Positions 55,518-62,561 of a stretch of 64,000 nt of DNA are shown here, in pieces. Source of the DNA: Acidimicrobiaceae bacterium (GTDB lineage Bacteria; Actinomycetota; Acidimicrobiia; Acidimicrobiales; Aldehydirespiratoraceae); the NCBI GenBank assembly GCA_028819005.1, contig JAPPMP010000003.1:19352-83351 (forward strand), given 5' to 3'. Numbering within the stretch: the first letter of the stretch is position 1; each line of letters begins with the position of its first letter. Both the position numbers and the translations under genes were made by a program. Under the pieces are notes generated by a model. It was not told the DNA's origin, ran no database searches, and saw only the letters and a list, made by a program, of their open reading frames with translations.

Positions 55518-55942
55518 CAGTGCTCCTGAGTTGCCAGTGAACGAAAACAGAGCGCGGCCACCGGAGCGCGAGAAATCGATGGGAAGTTAATCGGAACAGG
55601 CGCCAAGGGGACCACGCTGTCTCGAAGGCTAATGGGCGGGGAGCTTGGCGGCAACTTGGGCAACAAAAAGCTGCACCTGCCCTTTGCGTATACAGCAGAT
55701 GCCTGGCTGGTCGAGCAGCCGAAGATAAGCGAAGGGTAGAACAGTTGCCCGCAAAGGTCAAGCAACTTCACGGAATGTGCATTGCGCTCGGGTTCATGTT
55801 GGAGCAACGAAAACGCTACCGATTCGGCAATACGTCGGTTCCGCTGACAATCAGCCCGCCACGTTCCTTACTCTCGCAAGTTCCCGCCCGAATGGCGACT
55901 CCTGTCGTAGCGCGACGCTAAAACGCCGCCGAGTCGAACCCA
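55518..55942. other. Intergenic region with rpoB leader
   Basis: 425 bases without a supported gene. The left 240 bases form the probable rpoB leader. The right part precedes the TIR gene and shows no clear ribosome site or promoter. Confidence 0.6.
55733..55761 (-). promoter_or_regulatory. Candidate rpoBC promoter
   Basis: On the minus strand, TTGACC (55761-55756), a 17-base spacer, then TACCCT (55738-55733), about 215 bases before rpoB. It would let rpoBC be transcribed independently of rplJL. Confidence 0.5.
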
Positions 55943-56404
55943 GTGAGCGCACGGGCCGAGTACGATGTCTTCGTCTGCCACGCCACGGAGGACAAGTCAG
56001 CGGTAGCCCGTCCCCTCGCGATGGCGCTGGCTGCCCGCGAGATTTCGGTCTGGTACGACGAGTTCGAGCTTCGGATCGGCGACAGCTTGCGTCGTAAGAT
56101 CGATGCGGGAATCGCGAGGAGCCGTTTCGGGCTCGTCGTGCTGTCGCATCCGTTCTTCGGCAAGGGATGGGCGCAGTACGAACTTGACGGCCTTGTGACT
56201 CGGTCGACGGACGACAAGCAAGTCCTGCTGCCAGTTTGGCATGAGATTTCCAAGGAGCAGGTCGCCGACCAGAGTCCCTCGCTAGCGGACAAAGTCGCGC
56301 TCAAGACCTCGGACCTGACGATCGACGAAATCGCCGACCAGATTGCAGATGTCATCAATGGCGATGGCGAGTCGGCCCCTGACGCTCTGACTCAGGCCGA
56401 GTGA
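55943..56404 (+). CDS. TIR-domain protein
   Basis: 153 residues, essentially one TIR domain: AEYDVFVCHATEDKSAVARP at the N terminus, the BB-loop region WYDEFELRIGDSLRRKIDAG, and GKGWAQYELDGLV. The latter carries the Glu (about 80) that is catalytic in NAD-cleaving TIRs. GTG start, weak ribosome site. No membrane span or second domain. It converges on the short Argonaute gene, whose stop is 193 bases away. Role in defence by NAD+ cleavage or as a sensor is inference. Confidence 0.88.
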   Translation: MSARAEYDVFVCHATEDKSAVARPLAMALAAREISVWYDEFELRIGDSLRRKIDAGIARSRFGLVVLSHPFFGKGWAQYELDGLVTRSTDDKQVLLPVWHEISKEQVADQSPSLADKVALKTSDLTIDEIADQIADVINGDGESAPDALTQAE

Positions 56405-56432
56405 CGCCCAGCGCGAGATCTGCCATCGCTTG

Positions 56433-56478
56433 TTGTGACGGGACAGGTACTCAAGTTGTGACGGGACAGGTACTCAAG
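56433..56478. repeat. Two tandem 23-bp repeats
   Basis: ttgtgacgggacaggtactc plus aag, exactly twice (56433-56455, 56456-56478), between the TIR and Argonaute stop codons. The tgtgacgggacagg motif resembles ends of some insertion sequences, so this may be a transposition scar. Confidence 0.85.
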
Positions 56479-56596
56479 CCGACACCGTAGTCTCGCTCGC
56501 GCAATTCAGGTAACGGGAACCCCGTCGGCAGCAGGGAGGAGGAAACGCCCTATGGGGGTGCCGCTCACGGAGGTTAGGTAGCTGGTGCGTGGCGGA

Positions 56597-58039
56597 CTAC
56601 ATGAAGAGGCGGTAGGGAAATTCCCGACGGGGCAGGCTCGGCACGTTCGCGATGATGCCCGCCAAGCGCTGAGAGTACTTGATCGTCACGGGATTGTGGC
56701 CGTAGAGAGCGTCGTTGTTCCAGTCCATCTTGGAGAGCGCGAGTACTTCGCTGGCGATGAGTTCGAGCGGTCCTTGGCCCATGTGCCTTGTCAGCTTGAC
56801 GGGCGACGGGATGCTCTTGCCGCCCTGATAATGGTTCTGGCCCCGCAAGGCCGCGGCCCGCGCGTTGCCTGCGATCCACAGGAGCGCTGTCGTTCCCGAC
56901 ATCGGGATCATCGTCCCTCGGTGCACTGGGTAGCCGTCGGGCTTGGCCCGGGTGTCGCCTGCTGGCTTGGGCAGGATGCGTACGCCTCGCCAGCTTCTCG
57001 CTGGGGTGATGTCGACGCACTCGATCTCGTCGACGGCACTCAGAGCGTCGGACACTCCTGCCAGTTCTTGTTCCTTGAATGACGTTGTCTTGTGGATCAC
57101 GACGCGGCGCGGAATGTTGCCGCCGTTGCGGCTCTGGTAGAGCCGCAGGCTGCGGGCGAGCACGGCCCTCATGTCGTCACGGCTCAGGTACGGGTTGCGC
57201 CTCGCTTGAGCGGTATCCTCGACTGGGTCTTGGGCGTCGTAGGCGACGAATTGCATCCCGCCGCCGTCGGAGTCGAACATCTGCGAGCAACAGGTCACGA
57301 ACCGTGTATCGCTGGCATCTCCCCGCAGGGCATAAGCGAGGCCGATGTAGGCGGTGTGCTCGGGCACTCCTGCGATGGGCGCGAGCCGACACGGGGTGCC
57401 ACCGGCTTTCGTATACAACGCGATCGCGAGTCGCCACGAGATCGATTCGGTGTGATCGAAACTCAGCGCCTTGTCGTTGATGACCTGAGTGGGCAGCCCG
57501 AGTTCTGCGCCGATGGCTTTGATTTCGTCGTGCGCGTTGAAGCCATCGCTCTTGAACCCGGCTTCCCAGGCGCGGGGCAGGTGGATCACGGCGACATCGA
57601 ACTCGCTGCGCACGAGGTCCAGCTTGCGAAGCGCATCGGAGACTGCTGCGCGAACCAGGTGGGAGGCGGGGCCATCGCCGATGTCCTCGATGCGTTCTGG
57701 CAGCGAGAGCTGGGCGCACGCCGTAGCCGGCACGAGCGACAGGTCGAACAGACCCTTGAAGCCAGGATAGTCGGGTGTGTAGGAGTCTTTGGCGCCCGCC
57801 TTCTGCGGCTCGGCGACGTTCCGCAGAAGACGCCGTAGGTCAATGAGGCCGGATTCCGGCCCAGCGATAGCGATCCGCACTCGCTTGGCGTGAGACATGG
57901 TGCTGTAGCCGCCGAACCGGGTCAGTCCCCTCAGCGGGTTCGTGTCGACCTGCGATGCGTCTGACCCGGAGAACGCCAACAGCGGTTCGTCCAGAGCTGT
58001 GTAGGGAGCCAGACGATCAGTCAGCTCCACGGGGTTCAT
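56597..58039 (-). CDS. Short prokaryotic Argonaute (MID-PIWI)
   Basis: 480 residues, the size of short pAgos, which use a guide to recognise invading nucleic acid and trigger a partner effector. No PAZ or N domain. The MID part includes GLPTQVINDKALSF (about 181-194). The PIWI part has EHTAYIGLAYALRG, where active enzymes carry the first catalytic Asp, here absent, so slicing is not expected. RRVVIHKTTSF (about 311-321) and the C-terminal FPYRLFM are family marks. The ATG overlaps the SIR2 gene stop as ATGA, so the two are coupled; the longer frame to 58366 lies inside that gene. Confidence 0.93.
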   Translation of the reverse strand: MNPVELTDRLAPYTALDEPLLAFSGSDASQVDTNPLRGLTRFGGYSTMSHAKRVRIAIAGPESGLIDLRRLLRNVAEPQKAGAKDSYTPDYPGFKGLFDLSLVPATACAQLSLPERIEDIGDGPASHLVRAAVSDALRKLDLVRSEFDVAVIHLPRAWEAGFKSDGFNAHDEIKAIGAELGLPTQVINDKALSFDHTESISWRLAIALYTKAGGTPCRLAPIAGVPEHTAYIGLAYALRGDASDTRFVTCCSQMFDSDGGGMQFVAYDAQDPVEDTAQARRNPYLSRDDMRAVLARSLRLYQSRNGGNIPRRVVIHKTTSFKEQELAGVSDALSAVDEIECVDITPARSWRGVRILPKPAGDTRAKPDGYPVHRGTMIPMSGTTALLWIAGNARAAALRGQNHYQGGKSIPSPVKLTRHMGQGPLELIASEVLALSKMDWNNDALYGHNPVTIKYSQRLAGIIANVPSLPRREFPYRLFM

Positions 58040-59886
58040 GCTGCGCTCACGGCGTTTTGAGCATTGCGGTCGCTCCACGCGGTTCTGCCTGAGATACGAA
58101 AGGCCGCGTTGATGCCATCGCCCTTGAAGTAGTACGCAGTGATCACCGTCTCCTTGTCCGGTGCGATCAGGCGACTCCATGCGTCGATGATGTTGTTCCA
58201 CTGCACGTTGTAGCGCCGCGCCCACCGCTCCCGGCGCCAATCCGCGGCACCTATCTGGTCCGGCGAGAGCAGGCGACGCGAAGATCCGGCCCAATCCGCC
58301 GACCTGCCGGCACCGTCGCGATCGGATAGATCGACCCATGTCTGTGGTTCGAACGCGAGCCACCATCTGCCGTTGTGACGTTCGATCCGGATTCGTATCG
58401 CCTCAGCGAATCGACAGTTCAATCGGGGCACATTGCCCGTGATCGGGGATGGGTATGCATCCCGGAGCGGCCCTAGGAGCCTCCGATGCTCTGCTGCCGC
58501 GTCCTCGCTCAGGCGGCTGCTCGGTGGTCGAACCAAGAGCTGGTGCCCTCGGCCGCGTAGCAAAGGGGTCAAAGGGCGTCGCCTTGCGATCGATCTGGCC
58601 AACGCGTCATAAACCAGGCCCCGATGCATCGAGTCCGCGTACGGGTCCAGAGCGACGGTGCCCGACAGCCGACATCCAACAACCGCGAACGCCCGCTCAA
58701 TGTCGTCGTCCGCCCCGAACGCAAGCACCGTTCGTCCCGATGCTGCGACCGTCGCCCACACGTCGGCATTCTTGACGAGCGTCCGGGCCTCAGCAGAGGT
58801 CAACGGTTTCCTGAGCGTGACGGCGCGCGCCTCTTTGGGCAGTTCGAGCAGCTCCAGGGCAGAACAGCGGACCAACGGATAGTTCGTTCCCTGCGACACG
58901 GGCAGCGAGACCGGCGTAACGAGCGGCTTCGGCCTGAGCGCAAGCACATGCTCACGCATTGGCTCGTCGAAGTCGACCGCTCTCTCGATCTGGCCGGCAA
59001 GCTCGTCGAAATTCTCCGACTCCACGAACCCGCCCTCGATGCCGGCAGCTGTCGCATGCTCAAGCAACGACTCAACACGCGGCAGGACTGCAGTTCCCGG
59101 GCGTACGGCCCACCAGAGTCCTGCCGAGAACGCCCCGTCGACGCCGACGGCCTCGTCCAGGACATCCAACACTGAGTCATCACGTCCGCTGTAGCCGATG
59201 ACGAACAGGCCGAACTGGCTCAGCACTCCGGCCAACACACGGCGGAGTTGTTCGTCTTGGCACTGAAGCTCGTCCATCGTGTTCATCAGACGCTCAGAAA
59301 GAAAATCGCCATGCAGCTTGACCAGCAGAGGCCAAGACCCCTCTCGCATGCAGCGCTCGGCGCGTTCCACCTGATCAAGTGCTCCGACGGCCAAGGGCTG
59401 ACGACGCTCTGGCTCGACGAGTTCGTTTGCCGCCATAGCCGCCCGTTCGACGAGATCATCGAAATTCGTCGTGAATAGGCATCGAGTCCGCCCCGAGGCA
59501 ATCAGCGCTCCCAAGACGCGGTGACCAAACGAGGGGCTCCCGCGCTTCGCACGAGCCTCGATGAAGGCACGACGATCGCTGGGGCTCGGATACGCCGCCT
59601 CGAACGCCACGGCGTACTCGCTGGGATGCCCTGTCGGCGGGAAACCGTTCTGGCCGTCGAAGTGCGAGTCGACGCGCTCCGACCACAACGGATCACCCAA
59701 GTCGACCTCACTGGGCGAGATGTTCATCGCCGCGCAATAGAGCGTCTTCTTGAAGTCGCCAACCAAGTCCGAACCGGTCGGTACTCCCGCTGCCGCTGAC
59801 GCGCCAGCACCGAGCAACCACGCCATCTGTGGAACTCGCTGAGCGAACGAGCGGGCGAACACACTGGTTGAGACACTGTTAACCAC
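58036..59886 (-). CDS. SIR2-APAZ effector of a SPARSA-type system
   Basis: 616 residues. An N-terminal SIR2-type NADase domain has MAWLLGAGASAAAGVPTGSD (about 21-40), TTNFDDLVER (139), catalytic KLHGDF (His about 192) and IGYSGRDDS (230). Residues about 335-616 match the APAZ region that binds short Argonautes (NYPLVRCSALELLELPKEA, PRLNCRFAEAIRIRIERHNG). Known SPARSA pairs deplete NAD+ when the Argonaute finds its target. GTG start with GGAG eight bases upstream. Part of a minus-strand cluster with the SDH protease. Confidence 0.93.
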   Translation of the reverse strand: MVNSVSTSVFARSFAQRVPQMAWLLGAGASAAAGVPTGSDLVGDFKKTLYCAAMNISPSEVDLGDPLWSERVDSHFDGQNGFPPTGHPSEYAVAFEAAYPSPSDRRAFIEARAKRGSPSFGHRVLGALIASGRTRCLFTTNFDDLVERAAMAANELVEPERRQPLAVGALDQVERAERCMREGSWPLLVKLHGDFLSERLMNTMDELQCQDEQLRRVLAGVLSQFGLFVIGYSGRDDSVLDVLDEAVGVDGAFSAGLWWAVRPGTAVLPRVESLLEHATAAGIEGGFVESENFDELAGQIERAVDFDEPMREHVLALRPKPLVTPVSLPVSQGTNYPLVRCSALELLELPKEARAVTLRKPLTSAEARTLVKNADVWATVAASGRTVLAFGADDDIERAFAVVGCRLSGTVALDPYADSMHRGLVYDALARSIARRRPLTPLLRGRGHQLLVRPPSSRLSEDAAAEHRRLLGPLRDAYPSPITGNVPRLNCRFAEAIRIRIERHNGRWWLAFEPQTWVDLSDRDGAGRSADWAGSSRRLLSPDQIGAADWRRERWARRYNVQWNNIIDAWSRLIAPDKETVITAYYFKGDGINAAFRISGRTAWSDRNAQNAVSAA

Positions 59887-60063
59887 GGCAGGATCTCCAG
59901 TTAGCCTGAGCGGCAGCGGTGGTGAATCTCGGCCGTGCGTGAACGAGTTCCGCCCTTGTGCGCCAAGAATGCTGAAATTCGGGTTTGACGAAGCGTCTCG
60001 ACATTCTCAGCGTCAACCATCGTTCAAGTCACGGAAGTGTAGTTTGGGCTGACAACACTAGCG

Positions 60064-60077
60064 AACGAACGTTCGTT
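60064..60077. promoter_or_regulatory. Perfect 14-bp palindrome, candidate operator
   Basis: AACGAACGTTCGTT, a TetR-operator-like palindrome, 178 bases upstream of the SIR2-APAZ start in a 207-base gap. No regulator gene is next to it. Confidence 0.5.
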
Positions 60078-60093
60078 AAACTACTCCGGCGTA

Positions 60094-60318
60094 TTAACGA
60101 GATCTTCGCATTGCTTTCTCAGTAAGTGGATGGTTGGTGGTTTCCATGTCGCCATGCCAAACAACGACCGGACCGAGACCGCCGGACATCTCACGGTGGA
60201 ACTGAGCGGCTCTTAAGACCTCCAGTTCAACTGGGCGATGCTCGGGCGTCAGTCCTGCGGCACCAGCGTAGAACCTCAGTTGGTCGCGGAATCTTGAGGC
60301 CTGCGTCCCTTGAGCCAA
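60094..60318 (-). CDS. Small ORF after the SDH protease
   Basis: 74 residues from a TTG (AGGA just upstream) overlapping the protease gene by 43 bases, ending in VVVWHGDMETTNHPLTEKAM. The part beyond the overlap reads like a small globular protein, but I recognise no family and the start is weak. It may be real or chance. Confidence 0.35.
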   Translation of the reverse strand: MAQGTQASRFRDQLRFYAGAAGLTPEHRPVELEVLRAAQFHREMSGGLGPVVVWHGDMETTNHPLTEKAMRRSR

Positions 60319-61208
60319 TTCCTGTCGGTCGAACTGAGGATCAGTTTCGAGATTCCAGTGTTCTCGAACAAGATCGTCATGGCGTGATACGCGGTGAGCA
60401 CGGCATCTTGCAGGTCTTGGCTCTGTTCGAGTTCTTCGACGACGAGGCCTAGCTGGTTCGCCTCCTCTCGGTCGACGCGTCGACCGTGCGAACCGTGTTG
60501 GCTTGCGTCACTGAGATAGTTCGCGACCTTCAGCGCTCTGTTGCTCGCATCTTGGTTCCCGGCAAACATCCATTTCTCGAGCCACTCGGTAACGAGGGCT
60601 GCGCCGTAGTTCAAGGCGTTCTTGGCCTCGCTCAGCAACGACGGCCCATGGGCGGCCAGTACCGGAGCCCACACAGACACCGTTCCAGGGTCTTCTGCAA
60701 CTTCCGCTTTGGCCCATACGAACTGGTCAATGACAGCGTGAGCCGACACAGTACCGTGAGCGGTTCTCATTTGCGGGTCGATCGGGCCGAGTTGGCTCTG
60801 GCGCCCCATAATCACCCGGTCCGCGGCCAATGCGACCATGGTTCCTGCGGACATCGCATACGCGGGAACGATGACTTCAATATCATCGAACTTCGAGCGC
60901 AGGTACTTCACGATAGTCTCGGCCGCATTCGGAGACCCGCCTGGAGTGTGCAGGACTAGCGTCAGTCCCTTCGAGAAGTCCATCTCATGCACGCAACTCA
61001 TATACCCGTTTATGTCCTCGGGCATGATCGAGAGGTGAATGTTGGGCAACTCAGGATGCTGCAGGAACGCTGATCCGTAGTAGATGACCATGCGGTCGTC
61101 GCGCAATGCGGCGATGCGCTGGAGTTCCGTTGTCAGGCGTTCGAGCAACCCGTCAATATCAAAGCCACTTGTTCCGTAGAGCCGGACGAGATCTTGCCAA
61201 CTCGGCAT
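60276..61208 (-). CDS. SDH-family ClpP-fold serine protease
   Basis: 310 residues of the serine dehydrogenase proteinase family, a Clp/crotonase-fold peptidase. TLVLHTPGGSPNAAETIVKY (about 83-102) and VPAYAMSAGTMVALAADRV carry the oxyanion strand and the nucleophile (Ser about 120). GRQSQLGPIDPQM and a late GSHGRRVDREEA His region complete the fold. No signal peptide or membrane span, so cytosolic. The ATG overlaps the stop of the 65-residue gene (TGATG). Lies directly upstream of SIR2-APAZ/pAgo on the same strand; link to immunity is inference. Confidence 0.88.
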   Translation of the reverse strand: MPSWQDLVRLYGTSGFDIDGLLERLTTELQRIAALRDDRMVIYYGSAFLQHPELPNIHLSIMPEDINGYMSCVHEMDFSKGLTLVLHTPGGSPNAAETIVKYLRSKFDDIEVIVPAYAMSAGTMVALAADRVIMGRQSQLGPIDPQMRTAHGTVSAHAVIDQFVWAKAEVAEDPGTVSVWAPVLAAHGPSLLSEAKNALNYGAALVTEWLEKWMFAGNQDASNRALKVANYLSDASQHGSHGRRVDREEANQLGLVVEELEQSQDLQDAVLTAYHAMTILFENTGISKLILSSTDRNWLKGRRPQDSATN

Positions 61209-61405
61209 CAGTCCAGCAACAGAGAAAGCGACGGTGTGGTGACGACTTCGAAATCGGTCCGAGGCGGAGGCGCCATCCTTTGGCGAGCGTCACGGGCCAG
61301 GTCCACGAGAGCGCGCTGTGAGTGCTCGTGGAATATCTCCAAATACTCCTCGTACAGGGTCTCCCCGTCCACGCGTTCAGGCTGTGCTTCCGGCGTTGAT
61401 GTCAT
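61208..61405 (-). CDS. Small protein upstream of SDH protease
   Basis: 65 residues, acidic, mostly helical (YEEYLEIFHEHSQRALVDLA), ending LSLLLD. The stop overlaps the protease ATG, which implies co-translation. ATG start with AGTAGGGA upstream. Possibly a substrate, adaptor or inhibitor of the protease; not recognised. Confidence 0.6.
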   Translation of the reverse strand: MTSTPEAQPERVDGETLYEEYLEIFHEHSQRALVDLARDARQRMAPPPRTDFEVVTTPSLSLLLD

Positions 61406-61436
61406 GAGGGTCCCTACTTTCGTGGCTTAGGTGTGC

Positions 61437-61452
61437 GCTACGCAGGCGTAGC
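61437..61452. promoter_or_regulatory. Inverted repeat in the leader of the protease operon
   Basis: GCTACGC, ag, GCGTAGC: perfect 7-bp arms with a 2-base centre, 32 bases upstream of the 65-residue ORF start. Candidate operator. Confidence 0.45.
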
Positions 61453-61520
61453 ACCCCTGAGTGTGTCTGACTCTCCACCATAGTAATGGCACGAGATCGA
61501 CGAGTTGAACTAGCCGTGCC

Positions 61521-61590
61521 AGATTACAGGATAATAATTAAATTAAAATATAATTTAGTGTAAAATCATTATAACGATTAGAATTTAACC
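61521..61590 (-). promoter_or_regulatory. AT-rich block, probable promoter and island edge
   Basis: About 70 bases of almost pure A/T in otherwise GC-rich DNA. On the minus strand it contains TATAAT at about 61570 and many T-runs. It separates the phosphatase stop from the defence cluster and may serve as a promoter for the cluster. Confidence 0.55.
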
Positions 61591-62561
61591 TAGCCAATGC
61601 ATAGATTGGCCCGCGCTGCCGCGATCGTTTCGTCGCTGGCTCCGATCCAGTTGAGGTAGTTGGCGTGGTCTCCCCAACGTTGCTGAAAGCCCTCCAGCGT
61701 CAACCGCATCACAGCTCTCGGCGATTGCCACATCGTCTCGAAATCGTCCGGATCGAACCCGGCGGATCGGATCTTCTCCCGGAAGGGCGAGTCGGTGCCG
61801 GGCCGCCGGTACCGCTGGCTCAGCTCGTAGTCGTCGAGCAGGTACGGTTCGGGCACTCCAGCGAGTCCGAGGAGGACCATCGCCATGACTCCGGTTCGGT
61901 CCTTGCCTGCCGTGCAATGGAACAGGATGCGGTTTCCCGCGACTATCTCGTTGATCACCTCAATGAAGTAGTCGCCGAATCCTGCGAGCATGTTCAGATA
62001 TCCGGAGGACATGTCGTCGTTGTCGAACTTCACTAGGGAGCCGTCGATGATCCTTGCCAGCATGCTGCGGTGTTGGGCCACGTCGCTGGACATCGGCCGG
62101 TGGACGAGTCTGACTGTGTCGGGGAGTCGATCCGGCGCCATCGCGACTTCGCCGTCGCTGCGCAGATCGAACACGGTGGAGATGTTCAGCGATTCGATTC
62201 GTGCCTGGTCGTCGGCGGAGAGTCCGTCGAGGCGGTCGCTGCGGAACAGCCGCCCCCAACGCGAGTAGGAGCCCTGTGCGGTCGGGTAGCCGCCGAGGTC
62301 GCGAAAGTTGTCGGGCCCGTCCATCTCCAGGCGCCTCTCGGCGGCGACGATGAACCCCTGTTGAGGTTCGAACAGGTGGATGTACTGCCGGCGCGCGGTG
62401 CGAGCTACAACGATGCGGCCCGCGGCGTCGGGGGCGCGGACGTCTGTTCCGGGATCGTCGGGATCGTCCGAGACGAAGACTGACAACGACGGTGATCCAC
62501 CTCGCCAGGTAGCGATCAAGGCGTCGTCGACGGCGACAACGTTTAGGTGGGCGACGGTCAC
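61590..62561 (-). CDS. Tyrosine-protein phosphatase (IphP/Y_phosphatase3 type)
   Basis: 323 residues. The active-site loop ILFHCTAGKDRTG (Cys about 216, Arg about 222) is the CX5R motif; NFRDLGGYPT and RLFRSDRLDGLSADD are typical of this bacterial family. An N-terminal 80-residue beta domain (WRGGSPSLSVFVSDD) precedes it. GTG start immediately after the rplL stop, so probably co-transcribed with rplJL. Cytosolic; substrate unknown. Confidence 0.9.
   Translation of the reverse strand: MTVAHLNVVAVDDALIATWRGGSPSLSVFVSDDPDDPGTDVRAPDAAGRIVVARTARRQYIHLFEPQQGFIVAAERRLEMDGPDNFRDLGGYPTAQGSYSRWGRLFRSDRLDGLSADDQARIESLNISTVFDLRSDGEVAMAPDRLPDTVRLVHRPMSSDVAQHRSMLARIIDGSLVKFDNDDMSSGYLNMLAGFGDYFIEVINEIVAGNRILFHCTAGKDRTGVMAMVLLGLAGVPEPYLLDDYELSQRYRRPGTDSPFREKIRSAGFDPDDFETMWQSPRAVMRLTLEGFQQRWGDHANYLNWIGASDETIAAARANLCIG

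Follow-up and report, generated by a model that had tools for sequence, protein, structure and literature searches.

A predicted ClpP-fold protease and a rapidly diversifying small protein form a conserved two-gene pair in prophages and chromosomes, independent of SPARSA

Organization of the locus

The window, a 64,000-nucleotide stretch of DNA from an Acidimicrobiaceae bacterium, contains two overlapping minus-strand genes upstream of a SPARSA locus. The first gene (61208..61405, minus strand) was called as an ORF and encodes a 65-residue protein for which a helix and a flexible tail are predicted. The second gene (60276..61208, minus strand) encodes a 310-residue SDH-type serine protease, as assigned by Pfam (PF01972), phrog_11747, AlphaFold and Foldseek. 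The two genes are arranged head-to-tail and share a TGATG stop/start overlap (61206..61210, minus strand). This arrangement upstream of SIR2-APAZ and pAgo had been proposed in a sequence-only reading of the window, with which the coordinates and the Pfam match agree. A purine-rich, Shine-Dalgarno-like AGGGA precedes the ATG of the small ORF. No such stretch is visible upstream of the protease ATG, which fits translational coupling of the protease gene to the small gene.

The same reading had included a possible third gene, a 74-residue ORF (60094..60318, minus strand) that starts at a TTG within the protease gene. No homologue of this ORF was found in any fetched locus, and its GC3 is 0.52–0.55, compared with 0.68–0.85 in real genes nearby. 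The 74-residue ORF was rejected as a third gene on these two grounds and is probably not a gene.

Downstream of the protease gene, the SPARSA locus consists of the SIR2-APAZ gene (58036-59886) and, further downstream, the pAgo gene (56597-58039). A gap of 390 nucleotides separates the protease stop codon from the SIR2-APAZ start codon and contains a 14-nt perfect palindrome, AACGAACGTTCGTT (60064-60077), possibly an operator of the SPARSA promoter. A stand-alone TIR gene (55943-56404, plus strand) is convergent to pAgo, and its top PADLOC matches are PDC-S66, ThsB-like and retron-TIR models. Between the TIR and pAgo genes, a 23-nt unit (GTTGTGACGGGACAGGTACTCAA) is duplicated exactly in tandem (56432-56477).

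All five genes (TIR, pAgo, SIR2-APAZ, protease and small gene) reside in an insertion (55764..61597) that is absent from congeners and occupies the interval between a tyrosine-phosphatase-like gene and rpoB. The phosphatase-like gene (PF13350; 61590-62561, minus strand) lies between rplL and rpoB. It is retained there in congeners and has matches in many fetched loci of relatives. Three congeners (G001, G004 and G005) have the empty site, with rplL, the phosphatase gene and rpoB directly adjoining one another. The DNA homology of the window with the congeners ends at ∼55763 and restarts at ∼61598; therefore, one 5.8-kb segment was inserted, or was assembled, at a single site. No integrase was recognized, and a search for flanking repeats at the ends of the insertion gave none that were convincing. 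A very AT-rich tract (61528-61592) lies at the right edge of the insertion, directly before the phosphatase stop codon.

A sigma-70-like promoter match, TTGGCT-18-TATAAT (61568..61597, minus strand), is located upstream of the small gene, although such matches occur at a chance-level count. The counts of the promoter and terminator scan as a whole are at chance level, and the scan does not decide co-transcription. The leader of the small gene also contains a hairpin, GCTACGC-AG-GCGTAGC (61437-61452).

Structure and subfamily of the protease

The window protease matches Pfam SDH_protease (PF01972) with 69.9 bits, above the cut-off of 31.3, and matches NCBIfam NF047768 (Clp_like_SDH) partially with 86.4 bits, below the cut-off of 250. 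Its match to phrog_11747 is nearly full-length (residues 26–291, E = 5e-70). PADLOC-DB 2.0.0 returned no family for the protease, the 65-residue ORF or the 74-residue ORF. By Pfam search, the source genome encodes a single SDH protease. The protein appears cytosolic and lacks an NfeD domain and a clear membrane segment.

Four residues, Ser120, Asp144, His241 and His275, are invariant across 70 member sequences. Ser120 (codon 60849..60851, minus strand) in an MSAGT motif is the proposed nucleophile, Asp144 (codon 60777..60779, minus strand) in a GPIDPQ motif is the proposed catalytic aspartate, and His241 (codon 60486..60488, minus strand) is a candidate for the catalytic histidine. The protein is predicted to be a ClpP-fold SDH-type serine protease with an intact Ser/Asp/His set.

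The AlphaFold model of the protease, built from an alignment of locus-derived rows only, has a pLDDT of 94.8 and adopts the Clp fold in its first half. In a Foldseek search, the best solved relatives of the model are the 1510-N protease, SppA and ClpP. Query-normalized TM-scores to these relatives are only about 0.4 because none of them has an equivalent of the helical C-terminal half. Comparison of the sequence with those of solved structures gave weak matches to 1510-N and ClpP. In a BFVD comparison, the nearest viral structures are giant-virus proteins annotated as serine dehydrogenase proteinases (TM-score about 0.6), which indicates that SDH proteases are common in giant viruses as well.

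An HMM built from 11 relatives of the window protease delimits a sharply bounded subfamily, in which full-length members score more than 280 bits (290–470), compared with about 90–190 bits for other SDH proteins.

Separate occurrence of the protease and SPARSA

The sequence-only reading had joined the protease to SPARSA and considered it a possible accessory that controls the SIR2-APAZ NADase. The protease gene indeed lies on the same strand as SIR2-APAZ, directly upstream of it and in the same insertion. However, relatives of the window SIR2-APAZ occur without a subfamily protease in G035 and G011 (identities of 55% and 48%), and relatives of the protease in G022 and G044 occur without SIR2-APAZ. 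An SDH-type protease match was present in about 170 fetched loci, of which only the window has SIR2-APAZ or pAgo next to the protease. The search for SDH proteases beside SIR2-APAZ thus gave no second case, and a 390-nt gap separates the two genes. The recurrence with SIR2-APAZ/pAgo that marks a SPARSA component was not observed. The pair is not part of SPARSA. A role as a SPARSA accessory was rejected on the independent occurrence of both modules and is extremely improbable. Since the protease and SPARSA occur separately, the best interpretation of their adjacency is that one island carries both as separate cargoes.

Conservation and divergence of the upstream gene

For 72 nonredundant members, the available upstream sequence is long enough to judge; in 66 of them, an ORF of 55–130 residues ends between −90 and +40 nt from the protease start. 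The same criterion is satisfied by 57 of 170 mechanically called control ORFs (other long ORFs from the same loci; Fisher p about 4e-18). A tighter limit (−30 to +40) gives 56/72 for members and 42/170 for controls; for generic SDH genes it gives 8/27. Among the 72 loci, L071 and L078 lack such an ORF, and L089 and L086 have only a very short one. The sequence-only reading had suggested a check of whether both small ORFs of the window are conserved with the protease; conservation holds for the upstream ORF and fails for the 74-residue ORF. Wide occurrence of the protease without a small ORF, which the sequence-only reading had named as evidence against a joint module, was looked for, and the protease was found to be widespread with the small ORF.

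The small gene is under purifying selection where this is measurable, with dN/dS values of about 0.06–0.25 in recent pairs with measurable, unsaturated dS. It also diverges faster than the protease gene, into many unrelated-looking types. In all twelve pairs compared, the dN of the small ORF is about 1.4–3.7 times that of the protease, and phmmer links (E<1e-3) among 70 small ORFs yield about ten small clusters and many singletons. The types largely track the protease clades. The 15 window-type small proteins all belong to one protease clade of 18 members (support 1.0) and share a YxxYLEL-like helix motif and a C-terminal P-L-x-L-x-I tail. The structure model of the window-type protein is a single helix (residues 14–44) followed by a flexible tail.

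The small protein of the window ends in a PSLSLLLD / PLTLxI-type motif and is a divergent member with only weak similarity to the others. It scores 6.9 bits against the small-protein HMM (E = 3.1 among 8858 ORFs), which corresponds to a p of about 3.5e-4 for a single predicted position. It has no Pfam, NCBIfam or PADLOC match. A genome search with the small protein alone retrieved nothing, as expected for so divergent a protein, and is hence uninformative. In a PHROGs scan of eight small proteins, seven had no match, and one enterobacterial protein matched phrog_25714 (unknown function, 66 residues) at 3e-39. The small proteins do not form one detectable family, so a shared partner function is suggested by their position, size and architecture. 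In E. coli strain 120899, whose prophage pair lies at about 12.0–13.2 kb of L144, RefSeq carries no annotation for the small gene that precedes the protease gene (L144, 11678-12251).

The strict pairing, the size of the small protein and the window-type C-terminal tail, which is conserved to its last residues, would also suit a substrate that the protease cuts into an active peptide, such as a toxin, a signal or a lysis factor. However, no leader or secretion signal was recognized in the small proteins, a hydrophobic segment is present in only two of 70, and no transporter was noticed adjoining the pair. Such peptide maturation is unlikely.

Genomic context of the pair

The pair recurs away from SPARSA in prophages and chromosomes of several phyla. 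In two class-level samples from the phylum of the window, to which these frequencies refer, subfamily members were found in 10 of 399 genomes (including one divergent 191-bit match) and in 13 of 395 (2–3%). IMG/VR contains at least 80 contigs with subfamily members (182 candidates). One sequence type of the protease was found in 42 of 5426 E. coli genomes. Members reside in prophages or phages of E. coli, Klebsiella, Pseudomonas, Gordonia, Shewanella and Porphyromonas and in plasmid records of Klebsiella, Pseudomonas, Enterobacter and Acidiphilium, several of which are clearly phage-like.

The position of the pair in phage genomes varies, as is typical of accessory cargo. An E. coli prophage carries the pair between its lysis genes and the terminase gene, a Klebsiella prophage in the nin region, a Pseudomonas phage-plasmid beside the integrase gene and Gordonia phage BeeGee beyond the tail genes. 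Moron-like placement is also seen in Mu-like, Gordonia and Porphyromonas phages, and about 19 of 60 viral loci have an integrase gene at most two ORFs downstream. This accessory placement in prophages is strong. Prophage morons also comprise addiction modules and lysogenic-conversion genes. An Enterobacter phage-plasmid (L012, 4735-5560) carries a frameshifted copy of the protease gene between antiterminator Q and holin.

Bacterial capture of a phage protease for morphogenesis or lysis could account for the weak similarity to head-maturation proteases and for the copies located between lysis and packaging genes. It would not account for the wide variation in phage position, the chromosomal copies outside recognizable phages or the carrier E. 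coli prophage, which encodes its own separate prohead protease. This origin is very unlikely, and identity with a head-maturation protease was rejected because the similarity is weak and local and the positions are wrong. Carriage by phages, in some cases within late or early lytic regions, could instead reflect counter-defence or host take-over, in which an adaptor-aimed protease would degrade a host immune or regulatory protein for the prophage, and a variable adaptor would suit variable targets. Many copies, however, lie beside integrases, or beside defence genes outside phages, and this role is improbable.

On chromosomes, hsdR and hsdM of a type I restriction system flank the pair in one genome (G022; L183, 2634-9976), and the pair adjoins the DISARM genes DrmA/DrmMI in a second (G233). 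It is also adjoined by Avs4 (G461), a TmtA-like protein (G118) and a Fic protein (G378), and type I restriction adjoins a more divergent protease in G444. At E≤1e-20, the 118 neighbours yielded 84 PADLOC families, and the 105 control genes, from largely the same genomes, yielded 13. The tally of families is inflated, since many models match a single protein. When each locus is counted once, 7 of about 30 loci have defence neighbours, compared with about 1 in 20 for the controls (p about 0.08). The enrichment of the pair in defence islands is suggestive.

The order of a small gene followed by an enzyme gene, the overlapping frames, the mobile context and the fast-evolving partner are also consistent with a toxin-antitoxin-like addiction module. 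In such a module, the protease would be the toxin and the small protein the antitoxin, and the pair would stabilize the prophage or island without phage sensing. Against this interpretation, the small proteins tested contain no DNA-binding or other known antitoxin domain, and copies of the pair also occur in chromosomal defence islands, although toxin-antitoxin pairs are found there too. Addiction is a minority possibility and rather unlikely.

Proposed role of the module

The sequence-only reading had alternatively offered a separate defence system made of the protease and an inhibitor or sensor peptide. Its separateness, the conservation of the pair and the mobile, defence-type context stand as observations; the defence function itself is what we infer. 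The pair is conserved, mobile and independent of SPARSA, both of its genes are under selection, and the catalytic residues of the protease are invariant. Because it recurs without SPARSA in prophages and chromosomes of several phyla, the pair probably represents a separate, undescribed anti-phage module. With moderate confidence, we interpret it as a mobile two-gene module for anti-phage defence, with a diversifying small partner that governs a ClpP-fold protease.

In this anti-phage interpretation, the first gene would provide a very rapidly diversifying protein of 58–75 residues and the second, translationally coupled gene the protease, and the module would protect its host or lysogen from other phages. 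The small partner would bind the protease via its helix and hold or aim it, as a brake or an aiming device, with its tail probably in or near the protease active site. Phage infection would alter the partner–protease interaction, and the protease would then cleave a host or phage target, which would end the infection. SppA crystals with C-termini in the active sites (PDB title of a Foldseek match) are a precedent only for the binding of a tail by a Clp-fold enzyme. A bolder form of the anti-phage interpretation is tentative: the pair may be an undescribed immune system in which the tail of a diversifying sensor fills the active site and silences the protease, and the many unrelated-looking types of small protein would then be sensors of different phage triggers across the prophages and defence islands of several phyla.

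Searches of the open-access literature gave no description of the module, and an earlier report is possible in Brenes and Laub 2025, a study of prophage defence systems in E. coli to which PMC13092281 refers. Term searches of the PMC13092281 and PMC9519451 texts returned no such protease.

A chance-looking neighbour of SPARSA has become a coherent, widespread and testable two-gene module that is absent from current defence catalogues. The module has no PADLOC model and is of unknown function in PHROGs, and its small gene is unannotated in the examined E. coli RefSeq record. If it is true immune machinery, ClpP-fold proteolysis with a diversifying partner would join the known effector logics. 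The E. coli copies make the module directly testable.

Comparison with known systems

The protease shares the Clp fold and the conserved Ser/Asp region with ClpP-like SDH proteinases (PF01972, NF047768), of which the archaeal 1510-N/NfeD protease has been solved. Unlike these enzymes, it belongs to a separate subfamily that lacks NfeD and a clear membrane segment, contains an extra helical C-terminal half and has a near-constant small partner. In PHROGs, the protease (phrog_11747) and one partner type (phrog_25714) are both catalogued as of unknown function; the records shown do not link the two families and do not mention the diversity of the partner. SPARSA and the pair are neighbours within one insertion of the window, and neither family requires the other.

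Like type II toxin-antitoxin modules, the pair is mobile and has a small gene that precedes an enzyme gene and overlaps it. In contrast to those modules, no known antitoxin domain was found, the partner outpaces the enzyme in divergence, and toxicity is putative.

The Lit protease of the e14 prophage is a latent, cytosolic, single-gene metalloprotease that acts as an exclusion system and is activated by a phage capsid peptide. The module may resemble Lit as a prophage-borne, cytosolic protease, a hypothetical resemblance in function only. It differs from this single-gene metalloprotease in that it pairs a predicted ClpP-fold serine protease with a dedicated small partner.
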